Positions 22,334-60,519 of a stretch of 64,000 bases of DNA are shown one piece after another. This DNA comes from Nitrosomonadales bacterium. Lineage in GTDB: Bacteria; Pseudomonadota; Gammaproteobacteria; Burkholderiales; Gallionellaceae. The stretch's first letter is position 1. The number at the start of each line of letters is the position of its first letter. Under the pieces are notes generated by a model. That model had not been told where the DNA came from and searched no databases. It saw only the letters and a program-made list of their open reading frames with translations. Made by a program: the position numbers and the translations under genes. The stretch lies in contig JACRAT010000032.1 in NCBI GenBank assembly GCA_016234685.1, forward strand, positions 1 to 64,000, written 5' to 3'.

Positions 22334-23734
22334 TCAACACAATGTTTCGATCACGATCAGTGTGTGCGCCACCAGCAAGCGCCACTCATCCGCGCCGATC
22401 ACATAGGGAGGCATGAAGTACACCGTGTCGCCCATCGGGCGCAGCAGCAATTCATGCTGCAAGCCGAGGCTGAAACAGCGCTGGGCGAAATCCCGGTGCG
22501 GCGTCTCCACCTCGAACGCCCAGATCATGCCAGTGTTGCGGAAGTGCTTTACCTTGGGATGTTCGCGCAACGGCGCGGCGAGTTGGTTGAACAGCGCCGC
22601 CTTGCGTTGGTTGGCAACGATGACGTCGTCCTCGACGAAGATGTCCAGCGTCGCCAGCGCCGCGCGGCAGGCCAGCGGGTTGCCAGTGTAGGAGTGCGAA
22701 TGCAGAAAGCCACGCGCCACCTCGTCGGCGTAGAAAGCCTGATAGATGGCGTCGGTGGTCATCACCACCGACAACGGCAGATAGCCGCCGGTGATGCCTT
22801 TGGAGAGGAGGAGGAAGTCGGGGGTGATGCCTAACCCCTCCCCAGCCCTCCCCTTGTGCGAGCATCCGCTACGCAGATTGCCTGCTTGCCCCTCTTCAGG
22901 GGGGGGCGCTTGTTCGCACGCGAACAGCGTCCCTGTTCTGCCCACCCCCACCGCGATCTCGTCGGCGATCAGGTGTACGCCGTACTGCGTACACAGCTCG
23001 CGCGCCCGGCGCAGATAGATGGGGTGATACATCGCCATGCCTGCCGCGCCCTGCACCAGCGGCTCGATGATGAAGGCGGCGAGGCTCTGATGATGCTGTT
23101 GCAGATGCGCTTCCAACGCGGCGGCGCAGCGCAGGGCGTAGTCCTCGGCGGACTCGCCGGGGGCGGCGTCGCGCCAGTCCGGGCTGGGGACGGTGGCGTT
23201 CTGGCGCACCAGCACGCCGTAGGCCTCCTTGAACAGCGCCACATCGGTGACCGACAGCGCGCCCAGCGTCTCGCCGTGGTAGCTGTTGGCGAGGCTGATG
23301 AACTGCGATTTCTCAGGCTGGCCGTGGTTAAGCCAGTAGTGGGCGCTCATCTTTAGCGCGATCTCGGTGGCCGAAGCGCCGTCCGAAGCGTAGAAGCAAT
23401 GCCCCAATCCGGCGGGGGCGAGGCTGCGCAGCCGTTCGGACAACTGCACCACCGGCTCGTGGGTGAAGCCCGCCAGCATCACATGTTCGAGTTTGCCTAG
23501 TTGGTCGGTGAGCGCTTCGTTGATGCGCGGATTGCAATGCCCGAACAGATTCACCCACCAGGAACTGACCGTATCTAGGTAACGCCGCCCATCCGCATCG
23601 AACAGCCATACGCCTGCGCCGCGCGAGATTGGCACCAGCGGCAAGGTCTCGTGGCGCTTCATCTGCGTGCACGGATGCCAGACAGAGGCGAGCGAACGGG
23701 CGAGTAAATCAGAGTTGGACATGGTGAACGTCAA
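22334..23734 (-). CDS. bioA: Adenosylmethionine-8-amino-7-oxononanoate aminotransferase (contains an in-frame palindromic-element insertion)
   Basis: VWHPCTQMKRHE, LDTVSSWWVNLFGH, LIADEIAVGVGRTGTLFACEQA ... GITPDFLLLSKGITGGYLPLS; true start possibly MSNSDLL. Confidence 0.96.
   Translation of the reverse strand: MTFTMSNSDLLARSLASVWHPCTQMKRHETLPLVPISRGAGVWLFDADGRRYLDTVSSWWVNLFGHCNPRINEALTDQLGKLEHVMLAGFTHEPVVQLSERLRSLAPAGLGHCFYASDGASATEIALKMSAHYWLNHGQPEKSQFISLANSYHGETLGALSVTDVALFKEAYGVLVRQNATVPSPDWRDAAPGESAEDYALRCAAALEAHLQQHHQSLAAFIIEPLVQGAAGMAMYHPIYLRRARELCTQYGVHLIADEIAVGVGRTGTLFACEQAPPPEEGQAGNLRSGCSHKGRAGEGLGITPDFLLLSKGITGGYLPLSVVMTTDAIYQAFYADEVARGFLHSHSYTGNPLACRAALATLDIFVEDDVIVANQRKAALFNQLAAPLREHPKVKHFRNTGMIWAFEVETPHRDFAQRCFSLGLQHELLLRPMGDTVYFMPPYVIGADEWRLLVAHTLIVIETLC
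22832..22906. repeat. 75-bp G/C-rich palindromic element inserted in frame in bioA
   Basis: Encodes [25 protein letters not shown] between the BioA motifs ACEQA and GITPDF; ctaacccctccccagccctcccc ... cccctcttcaggggggg; core shared with 37928-37966. Confidence 0.8.
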
Positions 23735-25531: not shown

Positions 25532-27991
25532 CTACAAATCCGCACGCCGCAACCGCAGTGCATTGCCTATCACCGACACCGAGCTGAAGCTCATCGCCGC
25601 TGCTGCGATAATGGGCGACAGCAGCAGGCCAAACCATGGATACAGCACGCCCGCCGCGATAGGAATGCCCAGCACGTTGTAAATAAAGGCAAAGAACAGG
25701 TTCTGGCGGATGTTCTTCATGGTGGCGCGCGACAGGCGCACCGCGCGGACGATGCCGCGCAAGTCGCCCTTCACCAAGGTAACGCCTGCGCTCTCCATCG
25801 CCACATCAGTTCCCGTTCCCATAGCGATGCCGACCTGTGCTTGCGCCAGCGCCGGTGCATCGTTGATGCCGTCTCCCGCCATCGCCACAAAATGCCCTTG
25901 CGCTTGCAGTTGTTTGACGATGGCGGATTTTTGTTCGGGCAATACTTCCGCTTCGACCCGGTCGATTCCCAACTTTCTCGCCACCGCCTCCGCCGTGATG
26001 CGGTTGTCGCCGGTCAGCATGATGACTTGCACGCCTTCATCGTGCAGCGCGCGGATGGCTTCCGCTGTGGATTCCTTGACCGGGTCGGCCACGCCTATCA
26101 ATCCCGCCGCCTTACCGTCGATTGCCAGCAGCATCACCGTTTGCCCGTCTGCACGCAGAGCATCAGCGCGCAAAGGCAATTCGCCTGTGACTATGTTCAA
26201 CTCTTCGAACAATTTGAGATTGCCCAACGCGACTACGCGCCCTTCGACCACCCCTGCCACGCCCTTGCCGGTGTAGGAACGGAACTCGGCAACATTCGCC
26301 AGTTGCAACGCTTTCTCCTGCGCACCACTCACAATAGCCGCCGCTAGAGGATGTTCGCTGGCGCGCTCCAGACTGGCGGCCAGACGCAACACTTCGTCGG
26401 CGTCGAATCCGGTCAGAGGGACAATCGAGGTCAGCTTCGGCTTGCCCTCAGTCAGCGTGCCGGTCTTGTCCACCACCAGCGTATCCACCCTCTCCAGCGT
26501 TTCCAACGCTTCGGCATTCTTGATCAGCACCCCGGCCAGCGCGCCGCGCCCGGTGCCGACCATGATGGACATCGGCGTGGCCAGCCCCAGCGCGCAGGGG
26601 CAAGCGATGATTAGCACCGCCACCGCATTGACGATGGCGTGCGCCAGTCGCGGTTCCGGCCCGTACAGGCCCCACACCGCCAACGTGGCGAGTGCAACGC
26701 CCATCACCACCGGTACGAAATATCCGGCCATCACATCGGCCAGCCGCTGGATAGGCGCGCGGCTGCGCTGCGCCTCGCTCACCATGTGCACGATCTGCGC
26801 CAGCAGGGTGTCCGCGCCGACGCGCTCGGCGCGCATCAATAAACTTCCGGTGCCGTTCACCGTGGCGCCAATCAGCCGCGCGCCCGTCGTTTTTTCCACC
26901 GGGATGGATTCGCCGGTGACCATGGATTCGTCCAATGAGCTCGTGCCTTCCAGCACCACCCCGTCCACCGGCACTTTCTCGCCGGGGCGCACGCGCAGCA
27001 CGTCACCCGGCTGCACCAGTTCCAGCGGGATGTCCTCTTCGTTGCTGTTATTGAGAAATTCGCGCAGCGATTCGATTGCTCCCTCGCCCAGGGATTCAAG
27101 ATTGCCTTTCTCGTTTGTCCTTTCTCCCGCTTGCGGGAGAGAGTTAGAGAGAGGGGTTCTTTGCGGGGGAGGGTTGGGGTGAGGGGAGCGCACGATGCGC
27201 GCGGTCTGCGGCGCGAGTCCCAGCAGCAGCTTGATCGCCGCGCTGGTCTGGCTGCGCGCGCGCAGTTCCATCACCTGACCCAGCAGCACCAGCGCCATGA
27301 TTACCGCCGCCGCCTCGAAATACACCGGCACCGTATCCATCATGCTGCGCATCGCGGGCGGGAAAATGCCCGGCAGCAGCATCGCCACCACGCTGTAGCT
27401 CCACGCCACGCCGACGCCGAGCGCGATCAGGGTGAACATGTTGAGACTGCGGTTAGCCACCGATGCCCAGCCACGCTGGAAGATCGGCCATCCGGCCCAC
27501 AACACGGCCGGGGTGGCCAGCATGAATTCGATCCATTGCAAGGCGGGCATCGAAACGGATTCGGGCAAGAGCTGCGGGAAAAGGTCGGTTGCCATCGCTA
27601 GAATGAAAACCGGCAAGGCCAGCACCGCGCTGATCCAGAAACGTCTAATCATGTCGTTCAATTCGGCACTGTCCGCCGCCGGAGCATTGCGCGGCTCCAG
27701 CGCCATGCCGCAGATCGGGCAGTCGCCCGGTTCGCTGCGCACCACTTCGGGATGCATCGGACAGGTGTAAACCGCAGCAGCGGGAACACCCTTGGGCGGC
27801 GCCAAGTGCGGGTGGAGATAGTTCTCGGGGGCTGCCTGAAACTTGGCCAAGCACTTCGCACTGCAAAATCGGTAGTTTTCTCCTTCGTACAGATGGCGAT
27901 AGGAACTGTCTGCGGACACCGTCATGCCGCACACCGGGTCTTTGTTTACGACCACTTCCGGGAGAATTGCTTCAGGTGGATGGTGGTTCAT
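25532..27991 (-). CDS. copA: Copper/silver-translocating P1B-type ATPase with N-terminal YHS and heavy-metal-binding domains; contains an in-frame palindromic insertion
   Basis: [14 protein letters not shown] (YHS), [55 protein letters not shown]; start placed at MNHHPPE. Confidence 0.94.
27118..27190. repeat. G/C-rich palindromic element inside copA
   Basis: Perfect TCTCCCGC-tt-GCGGGAGA (27123-27130/27133-27140) plus agagaggggttctttgcgggggagggttggggtgagggg. Confidence 0.8.
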
Positions 27992-28016
27992 ATCAAGCCT
28001 CCGATTGTCGTTACGA

Positions 28017-28310
28017 TTAAGCCTCTTGGTCTCGGGCCGAGCTGCTCCCCACCAAGTTGTAGAAAACAGCGAATACCGCGCCGCCCAAGAACCCAATCAC
28101 GGTCACCCCGCATACGCCATAGATGAATTCATCCAGCACCCACGGCTTGTTGCTCTTGATTAGCGTCAAATCCAATCCATGAAACCACGCATTAACAAAA
28201 CCTATCATGCCATCTGGGAACAAGAAAACGGCCAGCGCACCAATCAGACCAATAGCGCCTGTCGTCAAGGCCAGCGCACTCCCCGTGCGCATGGGACTCA
28301 ATCTATCCAT
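28017..28310 (-). CDS. Small membrane protein, DUF5676-like
   Basis: [40 protein letters not shown]...[24 protein letters not shown]. Confidence 0.75.
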
Positions 28311-29977: not shown

Positions 29978-32900
29978 TCAAAGTGATTTGTGGGTTGAGG
30001 AGAGTTCACGCTGTTTGACCAACGCATAGATCACCGGGATCACTAACAGCGTGAGTACGGCAGATGACACCATGCCGCCAACCATGGGCGCTGCGATACG
30101 ACGCATCACTTCGGAGCCCGTGCCGCTACTCCACAGGATGGGCAGCAGTCCGGCCATGATCGCCACCACTGTCATCATCTTGGGACGCACACGTTCCACT
30201 GCGCCTTCCATGATGGCATCGTGCAAATCCTCGCGGCTGACCAGCCGCGAAACGTTTGCCCCCTCTCCCTCCCTCACCCCATGCCCTCTCCCGGGGGGAG
30301 AGGGGGGCAATTGAGGGTTGGGGAGGCGGCGCTTTGAACATTCAGCCAGCTTTTCCTGCCAAGCCTTCTCCAGATAGATGAGCATCACCACGCCGGTCTC
30401 CGCCGCCACGCCCGCCAATGCGATGAAACCGACCGCTACTGCCACGCTCAGGTTGTAATCGAGCAGCCACAGCAGCCACACGCCTCCGACCAGTGCGAAC
30501 GGGACGGACAGCATGACCACGACGGATTCAGTCACCTTCTGAAAGTTGAGATAAAGCAGTAAGAAGATGATGAGCAGGGTGACGGGGATGACGATCTTCA
30601 TCTTCGCTGCGGCGCGTTCCATATATTCGAACTGCCCGCTCCAAGTGGCGTAATAGCCGGGCGGGAACTTCACCTGATCGGCCACTGCTTTGCGTGCCTC
30701 GGCCACATAGGAACCGATGTCGCGATCACGGATGTCCACATAGATATAGGCGGAGAGCAGGGCGTTCTCGGTACGGATGGACGGTGCGCCTTTGCTGAGC
30801 TCTACCTTGGCGAGCTGCCCTAAAGGAATCATTGCGCCATCCATCGTTGGAACAAGCACTTCGCGCGCAATTTGCTCCGGCGTACTGCGTAACTCACGCG
30901 GATAGCGCACATTTACGCCAAAGCGTTCCAAGCCTTCCACCGTGGTGGTGACATTCTCCCCACCCAGTGCGGTGGCAATAACCTCTTGCACTTCACCCAC
31001 GGTCAGTCCGTAGCGCGCCAATGCCAGCCTGTCTGGTTCGATGTTGAGGTAGAACCCGCCAGTGATGCGTTCGGCGTAGGCGCTGCTCGTGCCTGGCACT
31101 TTCTTCACGACCGCTTCGATTTCTTTGGCGAGGCGTTCCATCTCAACCAAATTTTTGCCATACACCTTAATGCCGATGGGCGTGCGGATGCCAGTTGAGA
31201 GCATGTCGATACGTGCCTTGATCGGCATCGTCCATGAGTTCGCCACACCGGGGAATTGCAGCGCCTTGTCCATCTCGGCGATCAGCTTGTCGGTGTCCAT
31301 ACCGGGGCGCCATTCTTCCTGCGGCTTGAGATTGATCACCGTCTCGAACATCTCCAGCGGCGCAGGATCGGTGGCACTCTGCGCACGTCCTGCCTTACCG
31401 TACACCGATGCCACTTCGGGGAAGCTCTTGATGATTTTGTTCTGCGTTTGCAGCAGCTCGGCAGCCTTGGTCACCGACATGCCGGGAAGTGAAGCGGGCA
31501 TGTAAAACAGCGTGCCTTCATTCAGCGTCGGCATAAACTCACTACCCAATTTCATGGCGGGATACAGAGATAGCAACATCACCAATCCCGTTGCCACCAG
31601 CGTGGTCTTTTTGTGTTGCAACACCGTGGTAATGAGTGGCCGATAGGCGGCGATCAGCCAGCGATTCACGGGGTTTTCCGCCTCAGGCATGATTTTCCCT
31701 TGGATGAACAGCAGCATCAGCACCGGTACCAACGTCACGGAAAGGAGTGCCGCACCCGCCATGGCAAAAGTCTTGGTGAATGCCAGCGGCGCGAACAATC
31801 TTCCTTCCTGCGCTTCCAGCGTGAACACCGGCAGGAAGGAGACGGTAATAATGAGCAGCGAGAAGAAGAGGGATGGGCCGACTTCTTTGCAGGCGGTCAA
31901 TATCGCATCGAAGCGCGACCCCCCCTCTTTTAGTCGCTCGATATGCTTATGCGCATTCTCGATCATCACAATCGCTGCATCCACCATCGCACCAATCGCA
32001 ATCGCAATGCCACTCAAGCTCATAATGTTGGAGTTCATGCCCAATGCGCGCATGGCGATGAAGGCGATAAGGATGCCGACAGGTAACATCAATATCGCGA
32101 CTAGCGCACTGCGTGCGTGCATCAGGAACACCAAACATACGACTGCCACGATTACACCTTCTTCGAGTAGTGTGTGTTTGAGCGTTTCAATTGCACGCTG
32201 TATCAGTTCAGAGCGGTCGTACACCGCTTGTATGCTCACCCCTTCAGGCAGTCCGGGCGTGATCTCGGCGATCTTCGCCTTGATGTTCGAGATGACTTCC
32301 AGCGCGTTCTGTCCGTAGCGCGCCATGACGATACCTGACACCACCTCACCTTCGCCGTTGAGTTCGGAGATACCGCGCCGCTCATCAGGTGTCAGTTCGA
32401 CCCGTGCCACATCACGCAATGACACGGGTGTTCCTTTGTCCGCCTTCACCACTAGATTCTCGATGTCGTTGATGCCGTGCAGGTAGCCTTTGCTACGCAC
32501 CATATACTCGGTCTCCGCCATCTCCACCACGCGACCACCGACGTCGCGGTTGCTATCTCGAATCACTTGAGTCACTTTGCTCAAGGGGATGCCGTAAGCG
32601 CGCAGTTTTACAGGATCGACCGTCACTTGATATTGCTGCACGAAGCCGCCGATGCTGGCCACTTCAGCCACACCGTGCGCCTTGGTGAGTTGGTAACGCA
32701 GATACCAGTCCTGCATGGTGCGCAGTTGAGCGAGGTTGTGCTTCTCGCTCAGCACAGCGTATTGATACACCCAGCCCACACCCGTTGCATCAGGGCCTAA
32801 TTGTGGCGCGACATTTTTCGGCAAGCGCCCAGCGATACTGTTGAGATATTCCAGCACACGCGAGCGCGCCCAGTAGATGTCGGTGCCGTCCTCGAAAATG

Positions 32901-33184
32901 ACATACACGAATGACGCACCGAAGAAGGAGAAGCCGCGCACCACCTTGGATTTCGGCACAGACAACATCGCTGTAGTGAGCGGGTAGGTCACCTGGTCTT
33001 CCACCACTTGCGGTGCTTGTCCCGAGTATTCCGCATAGACGATGACTTGCACGTCGGACAAATCGGGCAGCGCATCCAACGGTGTCCTGAGCAGAGCAAA
33101 GATGCCGGCCAGCGTGATGAATAAAGTCGCCAGCAAAACCAAGAAACGGTTGCGCGCCGACCAATCAATGATGGTATTCAGCAT
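29978..33184 (-). CDS. cusA: Heavy-metal efflux RND transporter, Cu/Ag type (CusA); contains an in-frame palindromic insertion
   Basis: HME-RND: LDALPDLSDVQVIVYAEYSGQAPQVVEDQVTYPLT; GMNSNIMSLSGIAIAIGAMVDAAIVMIENAHKH; LPGMSVTKAAELLQ; RIDMLSTGIRTPIGIKVYG. Confidence 0.95.
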   Translation of the reverse strand: MLNTIIDWSARNRFLVLLATLFITLAGIFALLRTPLDALPDLSDVQVIVYAEYSGQAPQVVEDQVTYPLTTAMLSVPKSKVVRGFSFFGASFVYVIFEDGTDIYWARSRVLEYLNSIAGRLPKNVAPQLGPDATGVGWVYQYAVLSEKHNLAQLRTMQDWYLRYQLTKAHGVAEVASIGGFVQQYQVTVDPVKLRAYGIPLSKVTQVIRDSNRDVGGRVVEMAETEYMVRSKGYLHGINDIENLVVKADKGTPVSLRDVARVELTPDERRGISELNGEGEVVSGIVMARYGQNALEVISNIKAKIAEITPGLPEGVSIQAVYDRSELIQRAIETLKHTLLEEGVIVAVVCLVFLMHARSALVAILMLPVGILIAFIAMRALGMNSNIMSLSGIAIAIGAMVDAAIVMIENAHKHIERLKEGGSRFDAILTACKEVGPSLFFSLLIITVSFLPVFTLEAQEGRLFAPLAFTKTFAMAGAALLSVTLVPVLMLLFIQGKIMPEAENPVNRWLIAAYRPLITTVLQHKKTTLVATGLVMLLSLYPAMKLGSEFMPTLNEGTLFYMPASLPGMSVTKAAELLQTQNKIIKSFPEVASVYGKAGRAQSATDPAPLEMFETVINLKPQEEWRPGMDTDKLIAEMDKALQFPGVANSWTMPIKARIDMLSTGIRTPIGIKVYGKNLVEMERLAKEIEAVVKKVPGTSSAYAERITGGFYLNIEPDRLALARYGLTVGEVQEVIATALGGENVTTTVEGLERFGVNVRYPRELRSTPEQIAREVLVPTMDGAMIPLGQLAKVELSKGAPSIRTENALLSAYIYVDIRDRDIGSYVAEARKAVADQVKFPPGYYATWSGQFEYMERAAAKMKIVIPVTLLIIFLLLYLNFQKVTESVVVMLSVPFALVGGVWLLWLLDYNLSVAVAVGFIALAGVAAETGVVMLIYLEKAWQEKLAECSKRRLPNPQLPPSPPGRGHGVREGEGANVSRLVSREDLHDAIMEGAVERVRPKMMTVVAIMAGLLPILWSSGTGSEVMRRIAAPMVGGMVSSAVLTLLVIPVIYALVKQRELSSTHKSL
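30256..30329. repeat. G/C-rich palindromic element inside cusA
   Basis: ttgccccctctccctccctcaccccatgccctctcccggggggagaggggggcaattgagggttggggagg; encodes RLPNPQLPPSPPGRGHGVREGEGANV. Confidence 0.8.
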
Positions 33185-33185
33185 G

Positions 33186-34736
33186 TCAGTGTCCCTCGTG
33201 AGCTGCGGGCGGCTTCGCTTGCAGTTTAGTAATTACATATTCGCCCTGCTTACGTTCGACGAGCTCGAAGGTAATTGCTGCACCCGGCTTGATGCCAGTT
33301 GCCAACGAAGAGTTGGCAAGCGCGAAGTTCATGGTCATGCTCGGCCAGCCCAGCGTTTTGATCGCTTCATGAGTGATACTGGCGGTGCCATCTGCATTGA
33401 TCGCATCCAACGTTCCTTGCGCCTGATGCCCTATTACGGCAGGTTTGGCTTGCTCAGCCGCGCCCTGTGTGTCATACCCAGCATGTGCTGTAGCAGGCAG
33501 AGCGCTTTCCGTCCTACCCCCTTTGGGTGCTGCGCCGCCATGCGCGTGCCCAAACCCGCCAAGCGCCGCCTTGAGGTTGCTCTCGGCATCGATTAGGAAG
33601 TTAGCCTTGGTCACCACGCGCTCGCCTTCAGTCAATCCATCCAGCACTTCGGCGAACTCGCCGTCGCGCCGTCCTAGCTGCAAGGTGCGCGGTTCGAATC
33701 GACCTTCGGCGATCTGCACCAGCGCCAGTTGCCGCACGCCGCTGTCCAACACTGCCGACAGCGGGATGCTCAGCACCGCTGCGGCGTGGCCGGTGGCCAA
33801 CTCCACTTTGGCGTACATCGCCGGGCGCAGTCTGCCTTGCAAATTGGAAAGCTCGACGCGCACTTGCACGGTGCGGGTCTGCGGGTTGAGCACCGGAGAG
33901 ATGAAGCCGACCTTGCCGCTGAACACCTCGCCGGGATAGGCGTCCACGCTCACTTTGGCGGACTGACCAAGGCGCAGCGCACCCTGATCCTGTTCCGCCA
34001 CCTCGGCTTGCACCCAGACGCTGGACAGGTCGGCGATGCGGTACAGCACTTCGCCTGCCGCAAAGCGCGCGCCGTTGACGGCGGTCTTTTCCAGCACCAC
34101 GCCGTCGATCGGCGAACGCAGCACGCGGTTGGCCATGCCGTGGGTCAGATGGGCGAGGTCGTCGTCACTGATCTCCCAGTTGCGCAGGCGCTGGCGCGTA
34201 CTCTTGGCGAGGTCGGCCAGACCGGATTCCTGCGCCAACTGGTATTCGCGCAGCGCGCTCTCCAATTCCGGGCTGTACACCTCCAGCAGCGGCTGACCGC
34301 GCCGCACCGCCTGGCCGGTGGCGTTCACCTGCAACTGGCGCACCCAGCCTTCGAAGCGCGGCGCGATGAGTTGCTGGCGGCGCTCGTCCACCTCGATCAC
34401 CGCCGTGCTGCGCAGGCTGGCCGCCAAAGTGCGCAGCGCGACAGGCTCGGTGACTACGCCCAGCTTCTGCACCTTGTCGGGACTCAGCACCACTGTGCCG
34501 GGTGCAGCCGCTTCGTCGGCATACACCGGCACATAGTCCATGCCCATGCCGTCCACCTTGGGCACCGGCGAGGTGTCGGGCAGACCCATCGGGTTGCGGT
34601 AATAGAGGATCTTGCGCTCGGCGGGCACAGCGGCGGATTTTTCAGCCACGGGCACTTGCTGCTTGCCCCAGAAATATCCGGCGCTGCCAGCAAGGGTGGC
34701 CGCGACGAGGGCAGCGATCAAGGGAATAGGTTTCAT
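33186..34736 (-). CDS. cusB: Efflux RND periplasmic adaptor CusB with C-terminal CusF-like domain fusion
   Basis: YYRNPMGLPDTSPVPKVDGMGMDYVPVY; membrane fusion core; C-terminal GTLDAINADGTASITHEAIKTLGWPSMTMNF. Confidence 0.94.
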   Translation of the reverse strand: MKPIPLIAALVAATLAGSAGYFWGKQQVPVAEKSAAVPAERKILYYRNPMGLPDTSPVPKVDGMGMDYVPVYADEAAAPGTVVLSPDKVQKLGVVTEPVALRTLAASLRSTAVIEVDERRQQLIAPRFEGWVRQLQVNATGQAVRRGQPLLEVYSPELESALREYQLAQESGLADLAKSTRQRLRNWEISDDDLAHLTHGMANRVLRSPIDGVVLEKTAVNGARFAAGEVLYRIADLSSVWVQAEVAEQDQGALRLGQSAKVSVDAYPGEVFSGKVGFISPVLNPQTRTVQVRVELSNLQGRLRPAMYAKVELATGHAAAVLSIPLSAVLDSGVRQLALVQIAEGRFEPRTLQLGRRDGEFAEVLDGLTEGERVVTKANFLIDAESNLKAALGGFGHAHGGAAPKGGRTESALPATAHAGYDTQGAAEQAKPAVIGHQAQGTLDAINADGTASITHEAIKTLGWPSMTMNFALANSSLATGIKPGAAITFELVERKQGEYVITKLQAKPPAAHEGH

Positions 34737-37910: not shown

Positions 37911-38032
37911 GCCCCAACCCCTCCCGACCTCCCCTTGTGCGAGCATCCGCTACGCGGATTGCCTGCCGAAAACACCACAGGGGAGGAGCAATTCGGATTC
38001 CCGCCCTTATCAGCGGGAGTTGGAGGGGAGCT
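37911..38032. repeat. G/C-rich palindromic element(s) between argA and yggX
   Basis: gccccaacccctcccgacctccccttgtgcgagcatccgctacgcggattgcctgc ... aggggagg ... gcgggagttggagggga; 39-nt core at 37928-37966 matches bioA 22847-22885 with one mismatch. Confidence 0.8.

Positions 38033-58484: not shown

Positions 58485-60519
<2,035 letters not shown>

Follow-up and report, generated by a model that had tools for sequence, protein, structure and literature searches.

In-frame palindromic repeats of unrelated families recur at a single loop of BioA in Gallionellaceae

The bioA gene described here raises the question of how 25 additional residues came to lie within a conserved enzyme, and why at this particular position. 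The window, that is, the whole stretch of 64,000 nucleotides that was analysed, belongs to an incomplete draft genome (87.7%, 43 contigs), and its host was assigned to the Gallionellaceae from the nearest BioA relatives. The minus-strand ORF at 22334-23734 is identified as BioA by a score of 519 bits against NCBIfam TIGR00508. It reads FACEQA, then 25 residues, then GITPDFLLLSKG, the corresponding 75 bp being in frame and devoid of stops. In BioA sequences of the PDB and in close insert-free relatives, FACEQA is directly followed by (G/N)I.PD. Likewise, the BioA of G013, a genome of the same genus whose protein is 91% identical across the core columns, reads ACEQG-GIAPD and thus has an empty site. 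Together, this empty site and the direct join of FACE.A to.I.PD in PDB BioA and relatives confirm the clean 75-bp in-frame insertion claimed by the initial annotation, with exactly 25 residues relative to G013; the length is a net value, the precise ends being ambiguous by 1-3 bp. An assembly artefact or chimera could be invoked for a genome in so incomplete a state, but one continuous in-frame ORF spans the insert, and inserts at the same site occur in many independent assemblies, including the single-contig genomes G049 and G068 (L135, L136), which makes this explanation exceedingly improbable. The features of the window are compiled in Table 1.

Table 1 Features of the window related to the bioA insert and to similar repeats.
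Feature	Position	Strand	Basis or remark
bioA (adenosylmethionine--8-amino-7-oxononanoate transaminase), host gene of the insert	22334..23722	(-)	remainder of protein intact
In-frame palindromic repeat element, 75 bp, 25 codons	22832..22906	(-)	repeat-copy matches; absent in G013
C-rich terminal arm of the element (CCCCTCCCCAGCCCTCCCC)	22835..22853	(+)	3 matches at <=3 mismatches in the window, 0 expected by chance
In-frame insertion of related palindromic repeats, ~135 bp (~45 residues), in CopA-type P-type ATPase	27050..27184, ORF 25535-28096	(-)	absent in G013 ortholog
In-frame repeat (RLPNPQLPPSPPGRGHGVREGEG) in CusA/CzcA heavy-metal efflux transporter	~30255..30320, ORF 29981-33232	(-)	sequence motif; ends approximate
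Second, partial copy of the bioA-insert element, intergenic	37912..37966	(-)	sequence match in window
In-frame repeat (14 residues) in MurU	~60165..60210, ORF 59833-60519	(-)	sequence motif; ends approximate

A discrete repeat of ~72 bp, of which the insert is one copy, was matched in 63 of 120 Gallionellaceae genomes by a search with an 87-bp query. Four further good copies, all degenerate or partial, are present in the same genome. Full-length matches of the family span positions 8 to 80-83 of the query, while the insert occupies positions 7-81; since the matches stop at these points, the repeat's own ends are the ends of the bioA insert. These copies lend support to the earlier proposal of a small mobile palindromic element analogous to the Rickettsia palindromic elements (RPE). 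The consensus, read from the alignment of copies, is TCCTCCCCTGAAGTGGGGTAAGCAGGCAATCCGCGTAGCGGATGCTCGCACAAGGGGAGGTTGGGAGGGGTT (72 bp). Its terminal inverted repeats, the arms CCTCCCC...GGGGAGG, pair with each other, and it is clearly palindromic (fold z = -3.0; 1 of 200 shuffles as good). The palindromic nature ascribed to the insert thus holds for the family consensus, but the window copy, when folded as single-stranded DNA, shows this property only weakly (z = 0.02 including flanks, -0.30 by itself); it has diverged from the consensus and contains two additional G's. The consensus carries a TAA in the BioA frame; in BioA, and in a short-chain dehydrogenase (SDR) of another genome (L290) whose copy is read in the same frame, this codon is CAA. 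In many other copies, a second module resembling the first lies on the left, and the 72-bp form may therefore represent half of a larger element. No match was returned when the window was scanned against Rfam, and plasmids searched at blastn sensitivity contained no match to the element.

At the protein level, the AlphaFold2 model of the window BioA has a mean pLDDT of 84.9 and falls below 50 in one segment only, residues 279-295, which lies within the insert. The remainder of the model agrees with solved BioA structures, and the PLP lysine and other invariant columns are retained. Compared with G013, bioA shows a dN of 0.05 and a dS of 0.60 (dN/dS ~0.08) and is under purifying selection. The simplest reading is that the insert forms a tolerated surface loop.

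The position of the insert is shared widely within the family. In an alignment of 110 Gallionellaceae BioA proteins with 435 core columns, 39 proteins carry 7-34 extra residues at exactly the same junction, after residue 271 of the window protein, and no insertion was found elsewhere in the 435 core positions. The remaining 71 proteins are insert-free, so that a loop common to all near relatives does not account for the segment. The junction is constant to within a few bp over all inserts. Among 79 named relatives, mostly betaproteobacteria, BioA insertions of more than five residues are confined to the same loop, with Thiobacillus, Hydrogenophilales and Methylotenera among their carriers. The inserts of L082 and L100, judged by eye, look like remnants of other known repeats. 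Some mitochondria possess mobile bypassing elements, which the GC-rich hairpins resemble, and the element might by that likeness be skipped by splicing or by the ribosome and never be translated. Bypassing would require neither a length divisible by three nor freedom from stops, yet all 39 inserts have both properties in frame, and we regard skipping as hardly credible.

At least five families of palindromic repeats, unrelated to one another, are represented among the larger BioA inserts. Insert classes (A to H) were assigned by eye: class A has the form SPLSLTLSPKGRG...GRG, class B is LSPNPSPACGRG, class C is LPASGEAAVALSPSGG, class D is NPPCPPFAKGG, class E contains CCTTCGACAGGCTCAGGACGAACGG, class F is the insert of the window, and the remaining inserts are shorter and eroded types. 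Each of the classes A, B, C and D is also an abundant repeat of its carrier genomes, and part of the class E insert recurs in its own genome. An 11-residue loop of constant length, of the EKSLSRDSAKE type, is found in 12 genomes of genus g9 (L148-L164); the named matches with this loop type, L056 and L058, are Nitrotoga. This loop is probably an old insert maintained at fixed length.

Similar insertions affect other genes of the same genome. Motif searches, whose genome-wide tally of in-frame elements is a lower bound, gave in-frame matches in PolA, HrpA (twice), a DinG-like helicase, Mpl, LeuRS, aconitase (AcnA) and FolC, the gene names being based on inspection of the sequences and on orthologues from the same genus. 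Against these orthologues, the insertions align cleanly in most genes and less so in PolA. Within the window, the CusA/CzcA and MurU repeats are likewise short, C/G-rich and palindromic. In FolC (L309, G000 C30:3439-4908), two loops contain repeat elements that are read in frame. Each loop is a recurrent site, holding different elements in about 14-15 sequences from 30 family genomes and same-genus copies, an insert fraction biased upward by ranking the set on similarity to an insert-bearing query. In HrpA and LeuRS, the same or a related element occupies the same site in this genome and in G021 (L242, L244, L240) and is absent from the nearer G013, a pattern that suggests loss or gene exchange.

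Could the BioA inserts all descend from one insertion in the family ancestor, diverged beyond recognition and lost many times? Such a model was proposed for Rickettsia RPE-4/6/7 (PMC3767692). Some clades do share a single eroded insert, namely the loop of the 12 g9 genomes and the PRPHTKHRQER insert common to L136 and L137, and losses seem to happen, as the HrpA and LeuRS inserts missing from G013 illustrate. On the maximum-likelihood BioA tree, however, insert presence and absence change 19 times, or at least 18 times when weakly supported forks are resolved towards fewer changes; under one-way models, 20 independent gains would suffice, whereas an ancestral insertion requires 34 losses. Moreover, the large inserts can be assigned to separate repeat families, of which further copies exist in the respective genomes, and the tight clade L140/L141/L143/L204 combines two insert families with one empty site. 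Because of these independent element identities, a single ancient insertion is largely refuted, and we hold it to be decidedly unlikely.

A second possibility places the specificity in the DNA: a transposase would recognise the hairpin-like GCCTGCGAACAGGC just upstream, with protein tolerance being secondary. The fixation of the junction to a few bp and the frequent presence of the GCCTGCGAACAGGC hairpin there would fit such targeting. The perfect hairpin nevertheless shows no association with the insert (20 of 39 genes with an insert versus 27 of 71 without, Fisher p = 0.23), and it is broken upstream of the window bioA. Several unrelated families, in addition, share the BioA site, and FolC has sites of its own. 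We therefore consider DNA targeting unlikely. Of similarly low probability is a reading in which the BioA and FolC loops are true docking sites, to which an integrase or repair process preferentially delivers unrelated palindromes, the loops sometimes being kept for function. Such retention might be indicated by the 11-residue loop that has a constant length in one genus, and, if true, docking would constitute a route to new protein segments made from repeats.

We consider it highly probable instead that the insert is a non-autonomous, RPE-like palindromic element that entered a loop of BioA in frame, and that the hotspot reflects loop tolerance combined with selection. Short non-autonomous palindromic elements would spread through Gallionellaceae genomes as copies mobilised by a transposase supplied elsewhere, with insertions landing at many places. 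Those that break the frame or the fold would be purged by selection, an outcome that is visible in the alignments, and intergenic copies together with in-frame copies in permissive loops would be left over. One such element would have entered the BioA loop between FACEQA and (G/N)I.PD with the frame kept and CAA replacing the consensus TAA stop. It would be translated as a disordered 25-residue loop of an expressed and active BioA. The site would be a hotspot because the loop tolerates additional residues: different repeat families may survive there if they preserve the frame and are stop-free, and copies elsewhere in BioA would be removed.

With regard to mobilisation, no consistent target-site duplication was found among 15 flanked copies, as judged from their flanks. 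The same genome, in its incomplete assembly and searched for PF01797 (Y1 transposase) alone, contains two such genes, and the repeats flanking them are unrelated to the element; one of the two loci is flanked by GTAG-type repeats. The RAYT genes of the genome were accordingly rejected as mobilisers, having no repeats in common with the element. At one locus (L269, G000 C24:82191), a truncated copy of its 5' end lies in front of the Y1-transposase gene, which is surrounded by TCGAGTCTGACCC repeats. At another (L273, G000 C15:56937), a RAYT-like gene is flanked by REP repeats of the GTAGGATGCGCC type, apparently a classic REPtron.

As a whole, the BioA hotspot illustrates how junk repeats turn into protein. 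The Gallionellaceae offer a natural insertion-scanning experiment that maps the loops of conserved enzymes tolerating 7-34 foreign residues, and odd peptides in predicted proteins, such as LTPTLSQRE or LSPNPSPACGRG, are explained as repeats read in frame.

Protein-coding palindromes as such are already known from Rickettsia, from Wolbachia and, as REPs, from several bacteria; a dense hotspot at the same codon, in which unrelated families are intermingled with empty sites, was not found described in a limited literature search. In several bacteria, REPs have been reported inside ORFs, with PolA, helicases and tRNA synthetases as frequent hosts; in one case, the recB gene of Xanthomonas, different REPs occupy nearly the same position (2013, PMC3733652). 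The present elements resemble the GTAG/CGTC-tagged REPs as short palindromes inside ORFs with overlapping types of host genes. They differ in that the terminal GTAG/CGTC tag is absent, the consensus being TCCTCCCC...GGGGTT, and in that the element does not flank a RAYT gene at the two PF01797 loci of the incomplete assembly; the BioA hotspot is also far denser than the recB case. In-frame fusion to genes is also possible for bacterial MITEs (PMC2229807), and MITEs such as ERIC and Correia/NEMIS are likewise small and non-autonomous with inverted-repeat ends. Neither a target-site duplication nor a parent transposon was found here among the 15 flanked copies and in the PF01797 search.

The closest parallel is provided by the RPE and WPE of Rickettsia and Wolbachia, which are short palindromes of several families, in frame and stop-free in conserved enzymes, with co-located inserts in orthologues (PMC2229807, PMC10969869, PMC3767692). 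A palindromic element with in-frame copies in conserved protein genes is common to both systems. The host, however, is a betaproteobacterial member of the Gallionellaceae, and the elements are very GC-rich and measure ~72-100 bp (consensus ~72 bp) instead of the 100-150 bp of RPE. The analogy holds for the way of working; the element is no RPE in its host, nor in its sequence as far as the Rfam scan of the window goes. A study of R. japonica reported, for RPE-4/6/7, that every Rickettsia orthologue carried the insert at one site, and favoured a common origin with hotspots not excluded (PMC3767692); in BioA, unrelated families and empty sites are interspersed at one codon junction. Protein-coding palindromes are thereby extended family-wide to iron-oxidising and related betaproteobacteria, and the question left by Rickettsia, whether such a site is a hotspot or the relic of one old insertion, becomes separable here through the distinct families, the empty sites and the tree.
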